DNA from: Serinicoccus sediminis | GTDB lineage: Bacteria; Actinomycetota; Actinomycetes; Actinomycetales; Dermatophilaceae | Direction: 5' to 3' | Assembly: GCF_004153545.1 (NCBI RefSeq) | Contig: NZ_SDVA01000010.1 | Coordinates: 62,001-126,000, forward strand | DNA: 64,000 nucleotides | Shown: positions 13,263-47,510 of the stretch, one piece after another | Layout: each line of letters starts with the position of its first letter | How positions within the stretch are numbered: the first letter of the stretch is position 1 | Program-made: the position numbers and the translations under genes | Notes under the pieces: generated by a model | The model's input: the letters and a program-made list of their open reading frames with translations, nothing else | What the model was told of the DNA's origin: nothing | The model's database searches: none

Positions 13263-13694
13263 CGTCGTGCCGGGTCGGTCCCGGAGTGCGCAGGTCAGCC
13301 GGGCGGTGCAGACGCGTCGGCCGCGGTCGTCGGTGATGGCGATGTCGTAGCTCGCGACCGTGCGCCCGAGGGAGAGCGGCGTGGCCACCGCGGTGACCTC
13401 GCCCTCCCGGACGGGCCGGTGGTGGGTCGCGCTGAGGTCCACGCCGACGGCGATCCGCCCCTCGCCGGCGTGCATCGCCGCGGCGACCGAGCCGACGGTC
13501 TCCGCCAGCGCCGCGGACGCACCGCCGTGGAGCAGGCCGTAGGGCTGGGTGTTGCCCGCCACCGGCATCGTCGCGACGGTGCGCTCGGGGGAAGCCTCCA
13601 CGAGCCGCATGCCGAGGCGGGCGGCCAGCGCGCCGCGGGTGTCGTCGTCGTGGGCGGCCGGGGGAGAGGGGCTCGGGGTGGTGTTGTCGGTCAT
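13260..13694 (-). CDS. PaaI-family hotdog thioesterase
   Basis: A 144-residue hotdog-fold protein. The signature GLLHGGASAALAETVGS (about residues 53-69) carries the catalytic-loop HGG and Glu of PaaI/YbgC-type acyl-CoA thioesterases, and VDLSATHHRPV is the following strand pair. Its substrate acyl-CoA is unknown. It sits head to head with polA with only 18 nt between the start codons, as thioesterases often do near polA in actinobacteria. Its 5' end therefore contains the polA promoter on the other strand. Confidence 0.88.
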   Translation of the reverse strand: MTDNTTPSPSPPAAHDDDTRGALAARLGMRLVEASPERTVATMPVAGNTQPYGLLHGGASAALAETVGSVAAAMHAGEGRIAVGVDLSATHHRPVREGEVTAVATPLSLGRTVASYDIAITDDRGRRVCTARLTCALRDRPGTT

Positions 13695-13706
13695 GGGACA
13701 TAGGCT
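13684..13706 (+). promoter_or_regulatory. PafBC-type (RecA-independent) damage promoter of polA
   Basis: TTGTCGGTC (13684-13692, 8 of 9 matches to TTGTCRGTG), exactly 8 nt, then TAGGCT (13701-13706, TANNNT), then 6 nt to the polA GTG. Most of it lies inside the first codons of the opposite-strand thioesterase gene. The layout predicts a leaderless, damage-inducible polA mRNA. Confidence 0.6.
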
Positions 13707-26642: not shown

Positions 26643-26680
26643 ACGACGGTGGCCCGGCCGACCGGCCGGGCCACCGTTGT
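26643..26680 (+). terminator. Terminator hairpin after the BCCT gene
   Basis: A 17-bp stem (ACGACGGTGGCCCGGCC against GGCCGGGCCACCGTTGT, one G-U pair) with a GACC loop, 10 nt after the stop. The last four bases of the stem, TTGT, are also the first four of the uvrB damage-promoter box. Confidence 0.75.
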
Positions 26681-26699
26681 CAGACCCGGGGGATACCGT
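26677..26699 (+). promoter_or_regulatory. PafBC-type damage promoter of uvrB
   Basis: TTGTCAGAC (26677-26685, 7 of 9 matches to TTGTCRGTG), exactly 8 nt, TACCGT (26694-26699, TANNNT), then 6 nt to the ATG. The spacing is identical to that before polA and uvrA and predicts a leaderless mRNA. Confidence 0.55.
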
Positions 26700-36200: not shown

Positions 36201-37847
36201 GGGGCCGCTCGAGGCCTCCAGCGAGGTGACGATCTCCTCGCGGATGGCGTCGAGCGGCGGGTTGGTCACCTGCGCGAACGCCTCGACGAAGTAGTCGAAG
36301 AGCAGCCGCGGCCGGTCGGAGAGGACCGCGATGGGGGTGTCGGTGCCCATCGCGCCCAGCGGCTCCGCACCGGCCTGCGCCATCGGCGCCAGGATGATCC
36401 GCAGCTCCTCCTCGGTGTAGCCGAAGATCTGCTGGCGGCGCGTCACCGAGGCGTGGGTGTGCCGCACGTGCACCTGCGTGGGCAGCGAGTCCATGTGCAC
36501 GAGCTCCTCGTCGAGCCACTGCCGGTAGGGCTGGCGCGCGGCGAGCTCCCGCTTGACCTCGGTGTCGTCGAGGATCTCCCCGCGCGACAGGTCGACGAGG
36601 AACATCCGCCCGGGAGCCACCCGCCCCTTGCGCACCACCTTCTCGGGCGGCAGCGGCAGCAGGCCCGTCTCCGACCCGAGCACGACGAGGCCGTCATCGG
36701 TGACCCAGTAGCGCGAGGGCCGCAGCCCGTTGCGGTCGAGCACGGCGCCCACCTGGGTGCCGTCGGTGAAGACGAGGTTGGCCGGCCCGTCCCACGGCTC
36801 CATGAGCATCGAGTGGTACTCGTAGAAGGCGCGGACGTCGGGATCCATCGTCTCGTCGTTCTCCCACGACTCCGGGATCATCATGAGCACGGCGTGGGGG
36901 AGGGACCGGCCACCGAGGCTGAGCAGCTCCAGCACCTCGTCGAAGGTAGCGGAGTCGCTGGCGTCGGGGGTGCAGATGGGCAGGGCGTCGGCGAGGTCGC
37001 CCGGGAAGAGGTCGCTGCGCAGCTCGGACTGCCGGGCCCGCATCCAGTTGCGGTTGCCCTTGACGGTGTTGATCTCCCCGTTGTGGGCGATGACCCGGTA
37101 GGGGTGCGCCAGCGGCCACGAGGGGAAGGTGTTGGTGGAGAAGCGGGAGTGCACCACGGCCAGGGCGCTGGTGTAGCGCTCGTCGGTCAGGTCAGGGAAG
37201 TAGGCGGGCAGCTGGTCGGTCGTCAGCATGCCCTTGTAGGTGATGGTGCGCGTGGAGAGGGACACCGGGTATGCCGGCGTGCGCCGCTCGATGCGCTTGC
37301 GGGCGAGCCAGACCCGCCGTTCCAGCTCCAGCCCGGACTCCTGCGGCGCCGCGTCGCCCGCCGCGACGATGAGCTGACGCATGACCGGCATCACCGACAG
37401 CGCGGTGGGTCCGACCAGACCCGCGTCGACCGGCACCTCGCGCCACCCGAGCACGCGCAGACCAGAGCTCTCGACGATCTCCTCGACCTGGGCGGCCACC
37501 TCGTCGGTCTGCCCCTGGGCCGGGAGGAAGACGATGCCCACGGCGTAGGACCCGGGAGCGGGCAGCTCGAACGGCAGCACCTCCCGCAGGAAGGCGTCCG
37601 GCACCTGCGTGAGGATGCCCGCGCCGTCGCCGGTGTTCTCCTCGCTGCCGACCGCCCCCCGGTGGTCCAGGTTGTGCAGCGCCGTCAGGGCCTGCGCCAC
37701 GATGTCGTGGCGGGGGACGCCGTCGAGGGTCGCGACGAAGGCGACGCCACAGCTGTCGTGCTCGTGGGCCCCGTCGTAGAGGCCCTGGGGTGCGGCACCC
37801 GCGACGGGACGCAGGGCAGAGGAGGTCGGGTCGATCGACTCTGTCAT
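33261..37847 (-). CDS. gltB: Glutamate synthase (NADPH) large subunit
   Basis: A 1528-residue enzyme making two glutamates from glutamine and 2-oxoglutarate. The Ntn amidotransferase nucleophile is Cys33 in HDSCGVAF, exposed after removal of a 32-residue propeptide. The FMN-binding synthase barrel is at about 800-1230. The 3Fe-4S cysteines lie in [15 protein letters not shown]. The GXGXG-type C-terminal beta-helix ([13 protein letters not shown]) ends the chain. ATG 37847 gives a propeptide close to the usual length; upstream in-frame starts would lengthen it by up to 70 residues. It is divergent from uvrA, with -10 candidate TATGCT at 37952-37947 (minus strand). Confidence 0.96.
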
Positions 37848-37995
37848 GGGATCACCGGGTTTCAGGACGGGGCGCGCGGCACGCGACGGGGTCGGGGAGG
37901 GCACGCTCGGGACGGCGACGGCCCGCAACGGTTTCATGCAGGGTTCAGCATACCTATGCAGTTGCCCCGGCGGAAAAGTCGCCGAGGGAGAGGAG

Positions 37996-38017
37996 TGTCG
38001 GTGGCGGGACCTACAGT
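37996..38017 (+). promoter_or_regulatory. PafBC-type damage promoter of uvrA
   Basis: TGTCGGTG (37996-38003; only the first T of TTGTCRGTG is replaced, by G), exactly 8 nt, TACAGT (38012-38017, TANNNT), then 6 nt to the uvrA GTG. This is the best match of the three repair promoters in the window. Confidence 0.7.
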
Positions 38018-38023
38018 GGTGGG

Positions 38024-40998
<2,975 letters not shown>

Positions 40999-41002
<4 letters not shown>

Positions 41003-41466
41003 CCAGCACACCCGAGGTGGACACCGTGGTCGGCGCGTGCGTCGGCTGCGCGGCGCCCGGGGTGGCGCGGCGCCGCTTCCTGGCCGCCGGCGGGGGCGTC
41101 GCCGTGGCGGGGACGCTGGCCGGCTGCTCCTCCGGTGAGACCGGTGGCGGTGCCGCCACGACGGGCGCCGACGGCTCGACCCGGGTGCCGCTCGCCGACG
41201 TGCCGGTCGGCGGCAGTCTCTACCTCGACGAGGCCGAGGTCGTCGTGGCGCAGCCGGTCGAGGGGGAGGTGGTCGCCTACGACGCCACCTGCCCGCACCA
41301 GGGCTGCATGGTGTCCAGCACGGGCGCCGACGACACGCTGGTCTGCCCGTGCCACGGCAGCGCGTTCGCCGCGGCCGACGGCGCCGTCGTCCAGGGGCCC
41401 GCGACCACCGGGCTCACCGTCCTGTCGGCCCGGGTCGACGGCACGGAGATCGTCATCAGTGGCTGA
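40999..41466 (+). CDS. Rieske [2Fe-2S] lipoprotein with Tat-type signal
   Basis: A 155-residue protein. A twin-arginine motif ([10 protein letters not shown] from residue 24) is followed by a hydrophobic helix and a lipobox LAGC with C43, so it is probably exported folded and lipidated. The Rieske cluster ligands are C98 and H100 (CPHQGC) and C116 and H119 (CPCHGSAF). C103 and C118 could form the stabilising disulfide seen in bc1-type Rieske proteins. The electron partner is unknown. It overlaps uvrA by 4 nt and uvrC by 8 nt, an arrangement also known in other actinobacteria but without an explained function. Confidence 0.88.
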
Positions 41467-43372
41467 TCCGCGCAGCTACCGGCCACGGCCGGGCGAGATC
41501 CCCACCGACCCGGGGGTCTACCGGTTCCGGGACCAGCACGGCCGGGTCATCTACGTCGGCAAGGCCAGGTCGCTGCGACCGCGGCTGTCCTCCTACTTCC
41601 AGGATCTCGGCGCGCTGCACCCGCGGACGGCCCAGATGGTCACCACCGGGGCCAGCGTCGAGTGGACGGTCGTGCGCAACGAGGTCGAGGCGCTGCAGCT
41701 GGAGTACTCCTGGATCAAGGAGTTCGACCCCAGGTTCAACGTCAAGTACCGCGACGACAAGTCCTACCCCTATCTCGCGGTGACCATGGGGGAGGAGTTC
41801 CCCCGGGCCCAGGTCATGCGGGGCAAGAAGCGCCCCGGCACGCGCTACTTCGGCCCCTACACCCACGCCTGGGCCATCCGCGAGACGATGGACACCCTGC
41901 TGCGCGTCTTCCCGGTCCGCACCTGCTCGGCAGGCGTGTTCCGCCGGGCAGAGCAGGTCGGGCGCCCCTGCCTGCTGGGCTACATCGACAAGTGCTCCGC
42001 ACCGTGCGTCGGGCGGGTCGACGCGGAGGAGCACCGGGCGATCGCCGACGACTTCTGCGCCTTCATGGCGGGGGACAGCGCCCGCTTCGTGCGGTCCCTC
42101 GAGGAACGGATGCGCCAGGCGTCGGCCGACCTCGACTTCGAGACCGCCGCGCGGCTGCGGGACGACGTCGGCGCCCTGCGCAAGGCGCTGGAGCGCTCGG
42201 CGGTCGTGCTGTCCGACGCGACCGACGCGGACGTCTACGCCCTCGCCGAGGACGAGCTCGAGGTCGCCGTGCAGGTCTTCCACGTGCGGGGCGGACGCAT
42301 CCGGGGACAGCGGGGCTGGGTGAGCGAGAAGGGCGCCGAGTCCACTCCCGAGGTGGTCGAGCACCTGCTCCAGCAGGTCTACGGCGCCGAGCGGGGGGAG
42401 GACGTGCCGCGCGAGGTGCTCGTCCCGATGCTGCCCGCCGGCCACGAGGAGGTGCAGGAGTGGCTCAGCGGGCTGCGTGGCGCCCGGGTCGGCGTGCGCG
42501 TCCCGCAGCGCGGCGACAAGCGCACGCTGCTGCAGACCGTCGGGCGCAACGCCGAGCAGGCGCTGGCACGGCACAAGGTCGCCCGCTCGGGCGACCTCAC
42601 CCTGCGGTCGCAGGCCCTCCAGGAGCTGCAGGAGGTCCTCGAGCTGGACGACGCGCCGCTGCGCATCGAGTCCTTCGACATCAGCCACGTCCAGGGCAGC
42701 GACGTCGTCGGCTCCATGGTGGTGTTCGAGGACGGGCTGGCACGCAAGGGGGAGTACCGCCGGTTCATCGTCCGCTCCGGGACCGGCGACGACACCGCCG
42801 CCATGCACGAGGTGCTCACCCGTCGCTTCCGCCACCTCGCCGACGCACCGACGCCGGGGGCGGACGAGGACGGCCGTCCGGCGAAGTTCGCCTACCCGCC
42901 GAACCTGGTCGTCGTGGACGGCGGGCGCCCTCAGGTGCGGGCCGCCCAGGCCGCCCTGGCCGAGGTCGGGGTGACCGACGTCGCCGTGATCGGGCTGGCG
43001 AAGCGGCTGGAGGAGGTGTGGAACGCCGACCAGGACTACCCGGTCGTCCTCCCGCGCACCAGCGAGGCGCTGTACCTCCTCCAGCGGGTGCGCGACGAGG
43101 CCCACCGTTTCGCCAACACCTTCCACCGGCAGCGCCGGTCGCGCAGCATGACGACCAGCGCCCTGGACGGCATCCCCGGCCTCGGCCCGTCCCGCCAGCA
43201 GGCGCTGCTGCGGCACCTGGGCTCGGTCAAGGCGGTCCGCTCCGCCACCGTCGAGCAGCTCCAGGAGGTGCCCGGCGTCGGCCCCGCCCTGGCCGCGGTC
43301 GTCCACGAGCGGCTCTCCGGCGACAGCACGGCGCCTGCGGTTAACCTGAGCACGGGAGAGGTCCTCGAGTGA
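41459..43372 (+). CDS. uvrC: Excinuclease ABC subunit C
   Basis: A 637-residue dual-incision nuclease. The N-terminal GIY-YIG domain ([19 protein letters not shown], about residues 17-35) makes the 3' cut. A UVR motif (about 205-240) docks on UvrB. The RNase H-like domain ([20 protein letters not shown], about 400) makes the 5' cut. Two helix-hairpin-helix motifs end the protein ([30 protein letters not shown]). The GTG at 41459 lies inside the Rieske gene, overlapping it by 8 nt. Length is normal. Confidence 0.97.
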
Positions 43373-43424
43373 GCCGGTGCCGGGCCGGCCGCCGCTCCCG
43401 GCACGACCGACGGGAGGAGCCATC

Positions 43425-44348
43425 ATGACCTCACGCCGATCCGACCTGGGGGAGCAGCCGCCGACCCCCACCGACGCGACGGGACGCTCCGACGTGGTCA
43501 TTCTCACCGGGATGTCGGGGGCCGGGAGGACCACCGCGGGCGACGTCCTCGAGGACCGCGGCTGGTACGTCGTGGACAACCTGCCACCGGCGATGATCGT
43601 CCACCTCATGGACACCACCGCCGACGACCCCCAGCGACAGCGGGTGGCCGTGGTCGTCGACGTCCGCAGCCGGGACTTCACCGCCGAGCTCGCCGTCGCC
43701 CTCGACACGCTGGCCGAGCGCGGGTGGCGTCCTCGGGTCGTCTTCGTCGACTCCTCCGACGAGACCCTGGTGCGCCGTTTCGAGGCGGTGCGCCGCCCCC
43801 ACCCCCTGCAGGGGGAGGGCCTGCTGCTGGACGGCATCCGCCGGGAACGCCGCATGCTGGGCGACCTGCGCTCGGACTCCGACCTCGTGCTCGACACCTC
43901 CAGCTACAACGTCCACGAGCTGGCCGCCAAGATCGACGCGCTGCTCAACGTGGACGAGGACGTGCGGCTGCGCCTGGCGGTCATGGCCTTCGGCTTCAAG
44001 TACGGCATCCCGCTCGATGCCGATGTGGTGCTCGACCTGCGGTTCCTCCCCAACCCCTACTGGGTCCCGGAGCTGCGGCCGTTCACCGGCAAGGACGCGG
44101 CCGTCCGCGACTTCGTGCTGGGCCAGGACCTCGCGCAGAGCTTCGTCGAGCACGCGACGCAGATGCTGCGGACCGCCCTGCAGGGCTACCTGGCGGAGGG
44201 GCGACGCTACGTCACCGTGGCCGTGGGCTGCACCGGCGGGAAGCACCGGTCGGTCGCCACCGCCGAGGAGCTCACCCGCCGGTTGTCCGACCTCGAGGAG
44301 GTCGGCGTCCAGCTGTCGACCTTCCACCGGGACCTGGGGCGCGAGTGA
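43425..44348 (+). CDS. rapZ: RapZ-family nucleotide-binding protein
   Basis: A 307-residue P-loop protein of the RapZ (YvcJ) family. Walker A is GMSGAGRTT (about residue 27), DNLPP follows at about 49, and the C-terminal domain holds LDLRFLPNPYWVPELRPFTGKD and VAVGCTGGKHRSV. In E. coli RapZ tunes glucosamine-6-phosphate synthase through a small RNA; the role in actinobacteria is not settled. The ATG at 43425 follows GGGAGGAG. Its stop overlaps the yvcK GTG. rapZ-yvcK-whiA is a conserved trio. Confidence 0.93.
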   Translation: MTSRRSDLGEQPPTPTDATGRSDVVILTGMSGAGRTTAGDVLEDRGWYVVDNLPPAMIVHLMDTTADDPQRQRVAVVVDVRSRDFTAELAVALDTLAERGWRPRVVFVDSSDETLVRRFEAVRRPHPLQGEGLLLDGIRRERRMLGDLRSDSDLVLDTSSYNVHELAAKIDALLNVDEDVRLRLAVMAFGFKYGIPLDADVVLDLRFLPNPYWVPELRPFTGKDAAVRDFVLGQDLAQSFVEHATQMLRTALQGYLAEGRRYVTVAVGCTGGKHRSVATAEELTRRLSDLEEVGVQLSTFHRDLGRE

Positions 44349-45307
44349 GCGGCCCACGCGTCGTGGCCCTGGGGGGCGGCCACGGCCTGGCCGCGTCGCT
44401 GCGCGCGCTGCGCCACCTGACCGAGGCCATCACGGCCGTGGTGACGGTGGCCGACGACGGGGGGTCCAGCGGCCGGCTGCGGCAGGAGTACGACATCCTG
44501 CCCCCGGGCGACCTGCGGATGGCGCTGGCCGCGCTCTGCGAGGACACCACGTGGGGCCACCAGTGGACGGCGGTCCTGCAGCACCGGTTCGGCGGCTCGG
44601 GCGAGCTCTCCGGGCACGCGCTGGGCAACCTGCTCATCATGGCCCTGTGGGACCTGCGACCGCACGAGCAGGTGCGCGGTCTCGATCTGGTGGGCCGCCT
44701 GCTCAACACCCGCGGTCGGGTGCTCCCGATGGCGCTGGAGCCCCTGGAGATCGAGGCCGAGATCGAGGCGGAGACGGCGGTCGGCACCACCGCCACGAGC
44801 ACGGTGCGGGGCCAGTCCACGGTCGCGCGTCAGCCCGGGATCGTGCGCTCGGTGCGGCTCATCCCGGAAGCACCCCGGGCCTGTCCGGAGGCCCTCGAGT
44901 CCATCAAGCTCGCCGACCTCGTCGTGCTCGGGCCCGGGTCCTGGTTCACCTCGGTGATGCCGCACCTGCTCGTGCCCGAGCTGCGCCGGGCCCTGTGCGA
45001 GACCCCGGCCCGCCGCATCCTCACCCTCAACGTCAGCCTCAGCGACGACGAGGCGAACGGCTACAGCCTGGCCGAGCACGTGGGGGCGATCGCCGCCCAC
45101 GCCCCGGACCTCACCTTCGACCACGTCATCGCCGATCCGCAGGTGGTGCGCTCCCCCGAGGAGCGGGCGGCGCTGGACGCCGCGGTCGACCGCGTGGGGG
45201 CCAGCCTCGTGCTGACCGCCGTGGGCAGCCCCGGCCGCCCCGGGGTCCACGACACCCTGCGGCTGGCGGCCGCCTACCGTGACGTGATCCAGGAGCAGGG
45301 TCTGTGA
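44345..45307 (+). CDS. yvcK: YvcK/CofD-like gluconeogenesis factor
   Basis: A 320-residue protein with the CofD-like Rossmann fold: [18 protein letters not shown] at the N-terminus, [26 protein letters not shown], and [18 protein letters not shown] for the nucleotide-sugar or phosphate pocket. YvcK proteins bind UDP-GlcNAc-type ligands and link carbon flux to cell-wall synthesis. The GTG overlaps the rapZ stop by 4 nt. The gene ends 92 nt before the whiA start chosen here. Confidence 0.93.
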
Positions 45308-45399
45308 GCGCGGCACCGGTCCCAGCAGATAACCTTCCCGGGTTGTCCGGGGAGACCGCCCCGGGCTCCGGGACCGGCCGACCGAGGAGGATGAGTGCG

Positions 45400-46380
45400 G
45401 TGGCGATGACCGCGAAGGTCAAGGACGAGCTCAGCCGGCTGCCCGTCACCAAGACCTGCTGCCGCAAGGCCGAGGTGTCCACCATGCTGCGCTTCGCCGG
45501 GGGCCTGCACATCGTCGGGGGACGCATCGTCATCGAGGCCGAGCTGGACACCGCCCAGAGCGCCCGGCGGCTGCGGACGTTCATGGCCGAGGTCTACGGC
45601 ACCAGCAGCGAGCTGGTCGTCATGAGCCCCGGCGGGCTGCGCAAGCAGACGAGGTATGTCGTGCGCGCCACCTCCGACGGCGAGGCGCTGGCACGGCAGA
45701 CCGGCCTCATCGACCACCGGGGGCGCCCGGTGCGCGGCCTGCCCCCCAGGGTGGTGGGCGCGGCGGCCTGCGACGCGGAGGCCGCCTGGCGGGGCGCCTT
45801 CATCGCCCACGGGTCCATCACCGAGCCGGGACGCTCCTCGGCGCTCGAGGTCACGTGCCCCGGGCCGGAGGCCGCCCTCGCCCTGGTCGGCGCGGCGCGC
45901 CGCCTCAGGGTGCAGGCCAAGGCGCGCGAGGTGCGCGGCGTGGACCGCGTCGTCATCCGCGACGGCGACGCGATCGGGGCCATGCTGACCCGGCTGGGGG
46001 CCCACGACGCCGTCCTGGCGTGGGAGGAGCGCCGGATGCGCCGGGAGGTCCGCGCGACCGCCAACCGGCTCGCCAACTTCGACGACGCCAACCTGCGCCG
46101 GTCCGCCCGGGCCGCGGTGGCGGCGGGCGCCCGGGTGGAGCGCGCCATGGAGATCCTCGGGGACGAGGTCCCGGACCACCTCCGGGTGGCGGGCGAGCTG
46201 CGCCTCGAGCACAAGCAGGCCAGCCTGGAGGAGCTGGGCCAGCTGGCCGACCCGCCGATGACCAAGGACGCGGTCGCCGGACGGATCCGGCGGCTGCTGG
46301 CCCTGGCCGACAAGCGGGCCGAGGAGCTGGGGGTGGACGGCACCGAGGCCAACATCACCCCCGACATGCTGGAGGACTGA
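45400..46380 (+). CDS. whiA: WhiA sporulation/cell-division regulator
   Basis: A 326-residue DNA-binding protein with an N-terminal LAGLIDADG-derived domain ([31 protein letters not shown]) and a C-terminal helix-turn-helix (about residues 265-310, [26 protein letters not shown]). GTG 45400 is chosen because it gives the conserved [11 protein letters not shown] start and the best spacing to GAGGAGG at 45384-45390; an upstream GTG at 45304 would add 32 non-conserved residues. In Streptomyces WhiA activates division genes; in non-sporulating actinobacteria its targets are less clear. Confidence 0.93.
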
Positions 46381-46419
46381 CGCCGGTCGGCCGGTGTGGT
46401 GCGGCGCTCGCCGGGCCGA

Positions 46420-47510
<1,091 letters not shown>

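Follow-up and report, generated by a model that had tools for sequence, protein, structure and literature searches.

A candidate PafBC-dependent damage promoter with a predicted leaderless start ahead of uvrA in Serinicoccus sediminis

How is uvrA switched on in Serinicoccus sediminis, a member of the Dermatophilaceae, and where does its mRNA begin? The question is raised by a short element in front of the gene, which we analysed within a window of 64,000 nucleotides, the whole stretch of DNA under study. A preliminary description had read this element as a PafBC-type, RecA-independent damage promoter placed so that transcription would start on the initiation codon. Promoters of this class (RecA-NDp promoters) were reportedly described in mycobacteria by Gamulin and colleagues in 2004. 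The mycobacterial RecA-NDp, PafBC-dependent promoters have been reviewed, with UvrABC listed in the Mycobacterium smegmatis PafBC regulon and the motif described as reaching other actinobacteria (PMC8223512), and the UvrA protein is reported to be overproduced without RecA in mitomycin C-treated Mycobacterium tuberculosis (PMC8151990). PafBC control of uvrA and UvrABC is already published for mycobacteria.

The element ahead of uvrA

Positions 37995–38026 read G-TGTCGGTG-GCGGGACC-TACAGT-GGTGGG-GTG. This arrangement, gTGTCGGTG-N8-TACAGT-N6-GTG, precedes a frame (38024–41002) coding for a UvrA protein of 992 aa, in which UvrA domains were found; the nearest named UvrA belongs to an Ornithinimicrobium MAG (84%). 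The octamer TGTCGGTG occupies 37996–38003; with the preceding G it becomes GTGTCGGTG, which matches the box TTGTCRGTG at eight of nine positions, the leading T being missing. The 8-nt spacing is that of PafBC-dependent promoters, and the 6-nt gap GGTGGG separates TACAGT from the GTG at 38024–38026. Thus, the motif and its geometry as given in the preliminary description were confirmed. Looser variants, TGTCGG, TGTCAG or TGTCAC-N10-TANNNT, are reported for M. tuberculosis (PMC8151990). The -10 element has the TANNNT form with no canonical -35 element, the hexamer at that position (37989–37994) being AGAGGA, and no sigma-70-type promoter was called in 37800–46600. Since the glutamate synthase gene gltB (GATase_2 and Glu_synthase domains) lies upstream on the opposite strand with an ATG at 37847, the uvrA promoter would be located in a divergent intergenic region of ~175 bp.

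The genes downstream are listed in Table 1. As uvrA, the Rieske protein gene and uvrC form a run of overlapping genes, co-induction of uvrC is plausible. The rapZ, yvcK and whiA genes begin 52 nt after uvrC and have their own ribosome-binding-like sequence; between uvrC and rapZ, no terminator was called. These three genes may be co-transcribed with uvrA. The one terminator-like call in 37800–46600 is within uvrA, where shuffled sequences give 0.9.

Table 1. Features of the window discussed in the text
Feature	Position	Strand	Basis or remark
Putative PafBC (RecA-NDp) box GTGTCGGTG	37995..38003	+	Direct reading; conserved at uvrA in relatives
8-nt spacer GCGGGACC	38004..38011	+	Sequence varies among relatives, length constant
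-10 element TACAGT (TANNNT)	38012..38017	+	Direct reading; TANNNT also in relatives
uvrA, GTG start, predicted leaderless	38024..41002	+	UvrA domains; expected transcription start 38024
Rieske [2Fe-2S] protein gene	40999..41466	+	Pfam PF00355; start overlaps uvrA stop (ATGA)
uvrC	41459..43372	+	Pfam UvrC domains; start overlaps Rieske gene by 8 nt
rapZ - yvcK (CofD family) - whiA	43425..46380	+	Pfam; possible distal part of transcript
polA site TGTCGGTC-N8-TAGGCT	13685..13706	+	6 nt before polA GTG (13713)
uvrB site TGTCAGAC-N8-TACCGT	26678..26699	+	6 nt before uvrB ATG (26706)

Regulator genes and sites across the genome

The preliminary reading depended on the presence of pafB and pafC, and both are found in the pafA locus of this genome, a 3.55-Mb assembly of 97 contigs. 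On contig 55, one strand carries pafA, two fkbp-like frames, pafB, pafC, a tatA-like gene, a tatC-like gene and a DEAD-box helicase gene, the names other than those of the paf genes being a reading of protein starts. The fkbp-like genes are separated from pafB by a frame on the opposite strand; pafB is not adjacent to pafA and starts about 4.8 kb beyond it. PafA scores 665.7 bits against its equivalog model (cut-off 551.3); NCBIfam gave no match for PafB or PafC. The best matches of PafB among solved structures were 9fnd_X (7.9e-53), 7p5x_AY and then Arthrobacter aurescens PafBC (6sj9), and those of PafC were 6sj9 (9e-63) and 7p5x_AX, which is named PafC. Both proteins align with the solved A. 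aurescens and mycobacterial PafBC proteins (6SJ9, 7P5X, 9FND) over nearly their whole length. The two genes are separate, as in mycobacteria, unlike the A. aurescens protein, which is a natural fusion (PMC6789036). For the recognition helix, residues F42, R44, F46 and R48 have been described (PMC6789036). Residues 51–59 of the PafB found here, EAFERMFER, align with the mycobacterial chain, and F-E-R-M-F-E-R fits F.R.F.R by pattern.

The strict motif TGTCRGTG-N{7,9}-TANNNT occurs 12 times in the whole genome, with N8 in all 12 cases, as compared with two occurrences of the backward pattern. Relaxing the box to TGTCRG-N10-TANNNT yields 35 sites (backward control, 3), and TGTCR-N11-TANNNT yields 47 (backward control, 9). 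These controls suggest that a few of the 35 sites and up to about nine of the 47 are chance matches. A scan of the window with up to three mismatches gave 49 matches versus 18 expected, which we set aside as uninformative because most of them keep the TCGGTG word and not the -10 element. Chance is better tested by the fixed spacing, the occurrence of the site in relatives and the offset of the start codon, and these argue that the uvrA site is more than a chance match. The 64-kb window contains exactly three TGTCRG sites, ahead of polA, uvrB and uvrA, each 6 nt from the start codon.

A genome-wide scan for repair genes had been proposed with the preliminary description, and such genes are well represented: by our own classification based on Pfam and NCBIfam, 11 of the 35 TGTCRG sites front repair or replication genes. 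These are uvrA, uvrB, polA, recA (whose start lies 87 nt past the -10), recR, the DNA polymerase III alpha subunit gene dnaE, the endonuclease III gene nth, a photolyase gene, and genes for a DEDD exonuclease/UvrC-like protein, an SbcD-like phosphoesterase (below the family cut-off) and an HRQ1-type helicase. The probability of 11 or more such genes among 35 is about 4e-9 under an assumed, unmeasured genome share of 3%. The remaining 24 sites precede genes with no evident role in repair or replication, or no gene. They include genes for a ClgR-like regulator (below cut-off), NudC-like and SprT-like proteins, an RNB exonuclease, an SNF2/PLD protein, a recombinase, two MFS exporters and one of the DrrA type, metabolic genes and two similar frames without a match; one strict site (L002) lies within a gene. 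With the looser TGTCR motif, a gyrase-B-type gene (L130) joins the set, at 6 nt. The place of a RarA-like protein (L119) among the targets is doubtful because its homology starts about 250 codons into the frame.

Two of these cases deserve a brief description. The ClgR-like gene (L117, G000 C77:145539) has TGTCGGAG-N8-TACGGT about 100 nt upstream, and ClgR has been tied to the RecA-independent response in mycobacteria (PMC5656591). The two similar frames without a Pfam match (L025 and L027, G000 C22) each start 6–7 nt past a PafBC-type site and run off the locus ends; they possibly represent a repeated family cut by contig ends.

The site in related genomes

Eighty named uvrA loci were fetched, four of which had no anchor and two too little upstream DNA, leaving 74 for assessment. 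TGTCR-N11-TANNNT is present within 350 nt upstream of the uvrA anchor in 47 of the 74, as opposed to 0–1 match at each of ten other spacings (N7–N10 and N12–N17), one for the backward pattern and a mean of 0.2 for shuffles at the same loci. No exact match was found in the other 27, including Streptomyces gardneri and the three Arthrobacter loci; among the named Streptomyces loci, nine of 14 assessable ones harbour a TGTCR-type site.

A further 30 genomes were taken for uvrA, eight from the family of the window, eleven others from its order and eleven from outside the order. All eight family genomes (G178 among them) have the site with a GTG 6–7 nt past the -10. The site is found in six of the eleven other genomes of the order, four of them with the 6–7 nt layout, and in nine of the eleven genomes outside the order, none of which has a start at that distance. 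Seven of the 29 anchored genomes have no exact match. Among the named loci, 10 of the 47 sites show the 6–7 nt layout; going by their names, we take nine of these to be Micrococcales and one to be Aeromicrobium. Together, the counts inside and outside the order and the named sites indicate that the box is widespread and that the leaderless uvrA layout is mainly found in part of the Micrococcales.

In two genomes (G030 and G248; L180 and L183), uvrA keeps a TANNNT -10 element 6–7 nt before the GTG with a box that, by eye, no longer matches, suggesting that a leaderless start could outlive the activator site.

Across the class, the strict motif (N7–N9) is present in 375 of 394 genomes, and its N8 form followed by RTG at 6–7 nt in 330. 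In the family of the window, 88 of 150 sites are of the latter type (the total of 150 allows N7–N9). In one genus (f27/g55), a dispersed repeat raises the number of matches and, with it, the class-wide counts. One of its genomes (G174) has 198 strict matches, only 17 of them with a start codon at 6–7 nt, and most of the matches listed (L202–L231) belong to a dispersed, GC-rich palindromic repeat beginning with TGTCGGTGCCCGCCCGTAGGGT, which mimics or carries a PafBC-type site. In another genome (G257; C1, C15, C16 and C17), the identical site TGTCGGTGGTGGTGCGTAGGTT and the same start codon are listed five times, and three of these copies lie within about 600 bases of a contig start, which would fit a repeated or mobile element carrying a damage promoter.

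The joint presence of PafB and the motif was analysed in the 19 genomes of the class without a strict site and in 31 others. A PafB-like match was found in 18 of the 19, at 137 bits or more in 12 of them; it is absent from G050, which has no site, and from G029, which has two. The 12 siteless genomes with a PafB-like match of at least 137 bits and G029 thus indicate that the regulator and the exact motif do not simply co-vary, and where the strict motif is absent it may have drifted.

Outside mycobacteria, the same motif class has been described in Streptomyces coelicolor, at the RecA-NDp promoters of recA and of SCO6735, the latter reported to be UV-inducible; that work concerns genes other than uvrA, which does not appear in its main text (PMC5087735). 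For Streptomyces venezuelae, an initial search is reported to have found the M. smegmatis motif not conserved, with a LexA-independent response in Streptomyces still to be shown (PMC9380542). Our survey of a Streptomyces-like genus differs from that remark, which concerns the single species S. venezuelae, and bears on it. Its 39 genomes contain 1828 sites versus 83 for the backward pattern (about 47 versus about 2 per genome), counted with N7–N9, and 866 of the 1828 have N8 with RTG at 6–7 nt. Three sampled UvrA N-terminal stretches of the genus are 97–99.6% identical to those of named Streptomyces. In one of its genomes (G018; L233–L262), which has 52 sites, 30 were fetched, and for 28 of these the downstream product was scanned. 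By our count, ten are repair or replication products: UDG, RuvC, a DEDD-BRCT exonuclease, UvrA, UvrB, Ogt, DnaG, DnaX and two proteins with RecD2 helix-hairpin domains.

Start of the uvrA transcript and competing explanations

A start codon 6–7 nt past the -10 element is a mark of leaderless mRNA. Among the 47 TGTCR sites of the genome, an ATG or GTG follows the -10 at 6 nt in 17 cases and at 7 nt in 12, with 0–4 cases at any other position up to 59, an excess with a binomial P of about 4e-25 against the local background. This peak is evidence for the -10 element and the transcription start that does not rely on the box. The codon is a start of the chosen gene at 25 of these 29 sites; at L003, L007 and L011 it opens another frame ahead of that gene, and at L002 it is inside a gene. 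Upstream of the photolyase gene (L007, G000 C27) and of an MFS exporter gene (L003, G000 C11), the codon 6 nt past the -10 opens a mini-ORF of 7–8 codons, and the start codon of the main gene overlaps the mini-ORF stop (ATGA / GTGA), suggesting a leaderless mini-cistron that may be coupled to the main gene.

For uvrA, the 6-nt gap and the 6–7 nt layout in its family place the expected first transcribed nucleotide on the start codon. We therefore retain the leaderless placement put forward in the preliminary description, supported by the genome-wide offsets and by the relatives, and predict that the uvrA mRNA begins on the GTG at 38024. In the three mycobacterial uvrA loci with a site (L070, L091 and G003), in contrast with the 6 nt seen here, the nearest in-frame ATG, GTG or TTG is 32–48 nt past the -10. 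The promoter could be real and the mRNA leadered, with uvrA starting at GTG 38051 or 38078 after a 5' leader of 27–54 nt. In-frame GTG codons do lie 33 and 60 nt past the -10, box-bearing Streptomyces and mycobacterial uvrA genes mostly have candidate starts 32–63 nt past it, and a RecA-NDp start of M. tuberculosis Rv1955 is reported to map about 50 nt upstream of the initiation codon (PMC2897130). We nevertheless judge a later start unlikely, given the GTG kept at 6–7 nt in all eight family genomes and at 10 of the 47 named sites, and the 29 of 47 sites with such a codon genome-wide.

As a control for leaderless starts, housekeeping-like TTGAC-N17-19-TANNNT sites were collected from the same genome and from G081 and G128. 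An ATG or GTG at 6–7 nt follows 6 of 16 sites fetched in the genome of the window (21 found), 1 of 15 in G081 (15 found) and 3 of 9 fetched in G128 (16 found), 10 of 40 when pooled. Compared with the 29 of 47 PafBC-type sites, Fisher's P is 0.14 within the genome and 0.001 for the pool, which mixes genomes. The TTGAC set is contaminated, with 7 backward matches for 21, 5 for 15 and 27 for 16, and for this reason leaderlessness is not claimed to be special to the regulon. As 6 of 16 housekeeping-like promoters share the 6–7 nt start, the layout may reflect a general habit of the genome rather than the design of the regulon. In a crude list of 44 frames of the window, TANNNT is found exactly 6 nt from the candidate start five times, three of them at the PafBC-type sites.

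A different possibility is that uvrA belongs to the LexA-controlled SOS response, as in Escherichia coli and partly in S. venezuelae, and that TGTCGGTG-TACAGT is incidental. The uvrA gene is damage-induced in other bacteria through LexA, and lexA is present in the genome. In S. venezuelae, uvrA is reported to show a LexA ChIP peak and to be bound by LexA in vitro (PMC9380542), and in mycobacteria both systems are said to control uvrA (PMC8223512). SOS promoters work by release of a repressor and not by activation, and a search of 37581–38245 for GAAC-N4-GTTC with up to two mismatches found no such operator, in agreement with the preliminary description; some LexA control may exist even so. Set against the PafBC-type site kept at a single spacing across uvrA loci, an incidental TGTCGGTG-TACAGT under LexA alone appears very improbable. 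Equally hard to maintain is an ordinary constitutive housekeeping promoter in which only the -10 element matters and TGTCGGTG is unimportant: the starts 6–7 nt past TANNNT at 6 of 16 housekeeping-like promoters and the two relatives that keep the -10 without a matching box would fit it, but the box and its distance are fixed in 47 of 74 named loci, with 0–1 match at ten other spacings, and no sigma-70-type promoter was called.

The element is very probably a PafBC-dependent damage promoter of uvrA of the RecA-NDp class, a reading that draws on the pafB and pafC genes, the sites across the genome and the conservation at uvrA. It shares with mycobacterial PafBC promoters the box, the 8-nt spacing, the TANNNT -10 element, a regulator pair in the pafA locus and, by prediction here, UvrABC as a target. 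Single-stranded DNA is reported to activate PafBC, which then makes its promoters usable by the housekeeping polymerase: the complex inserts between the DNA and domain 4 of sigma, PafB sitting at the -26 motif and PafC at the sigma factor (PMC11804915). If the case resembles that of mycobacteria, single-stranded DNA arising from damage would bind the WYL domains of a PafB-PafC heterodimer, and activated PafBC would join the housekeeping RNA polymerase at the uvrA promoter. There, the TGTCRGTG box, recognized by PafB, would take the role of a -35 element, PafC would contact sigma domain 4, and sigma would use the -10 element TACAGT (sigma adaptation). The first transcribed nucleotide would be the G of the GTG, making the uvrA mRNA leaderless, and the transcript would extend across the Rieske gene and uvrC, whose starts overlap the genes before them, and possibly beyond.

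We found no earlier report of a leaderless PafBC layout or of leaderless actinobacterial damage genes in a literature search that lacked most subscription papers. A more speculative proposal, which we put forward tentatively and rate below even chances, concerns the whole family: box, -10 element and start codon could form a rigid module of ~30 bp, with most of the damage regulon leaderless. The response would then be independent of Shine-Dalgarno initiation, and its mRNAs possibly preferred in translation when damage or stress alters ribosomes. On the same proposal, the uvrA promoter would have changed between a leadered layout (mycobacteria, Streptomyces) and a leaderless one (much of the Micrococcales) with the activator site retained. 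The uvrA case provides a testable gene list and precise predicted starts of transcription and translation, and it would add a further actinobacterial family to a damage response characterized mostly in mycobacteria.
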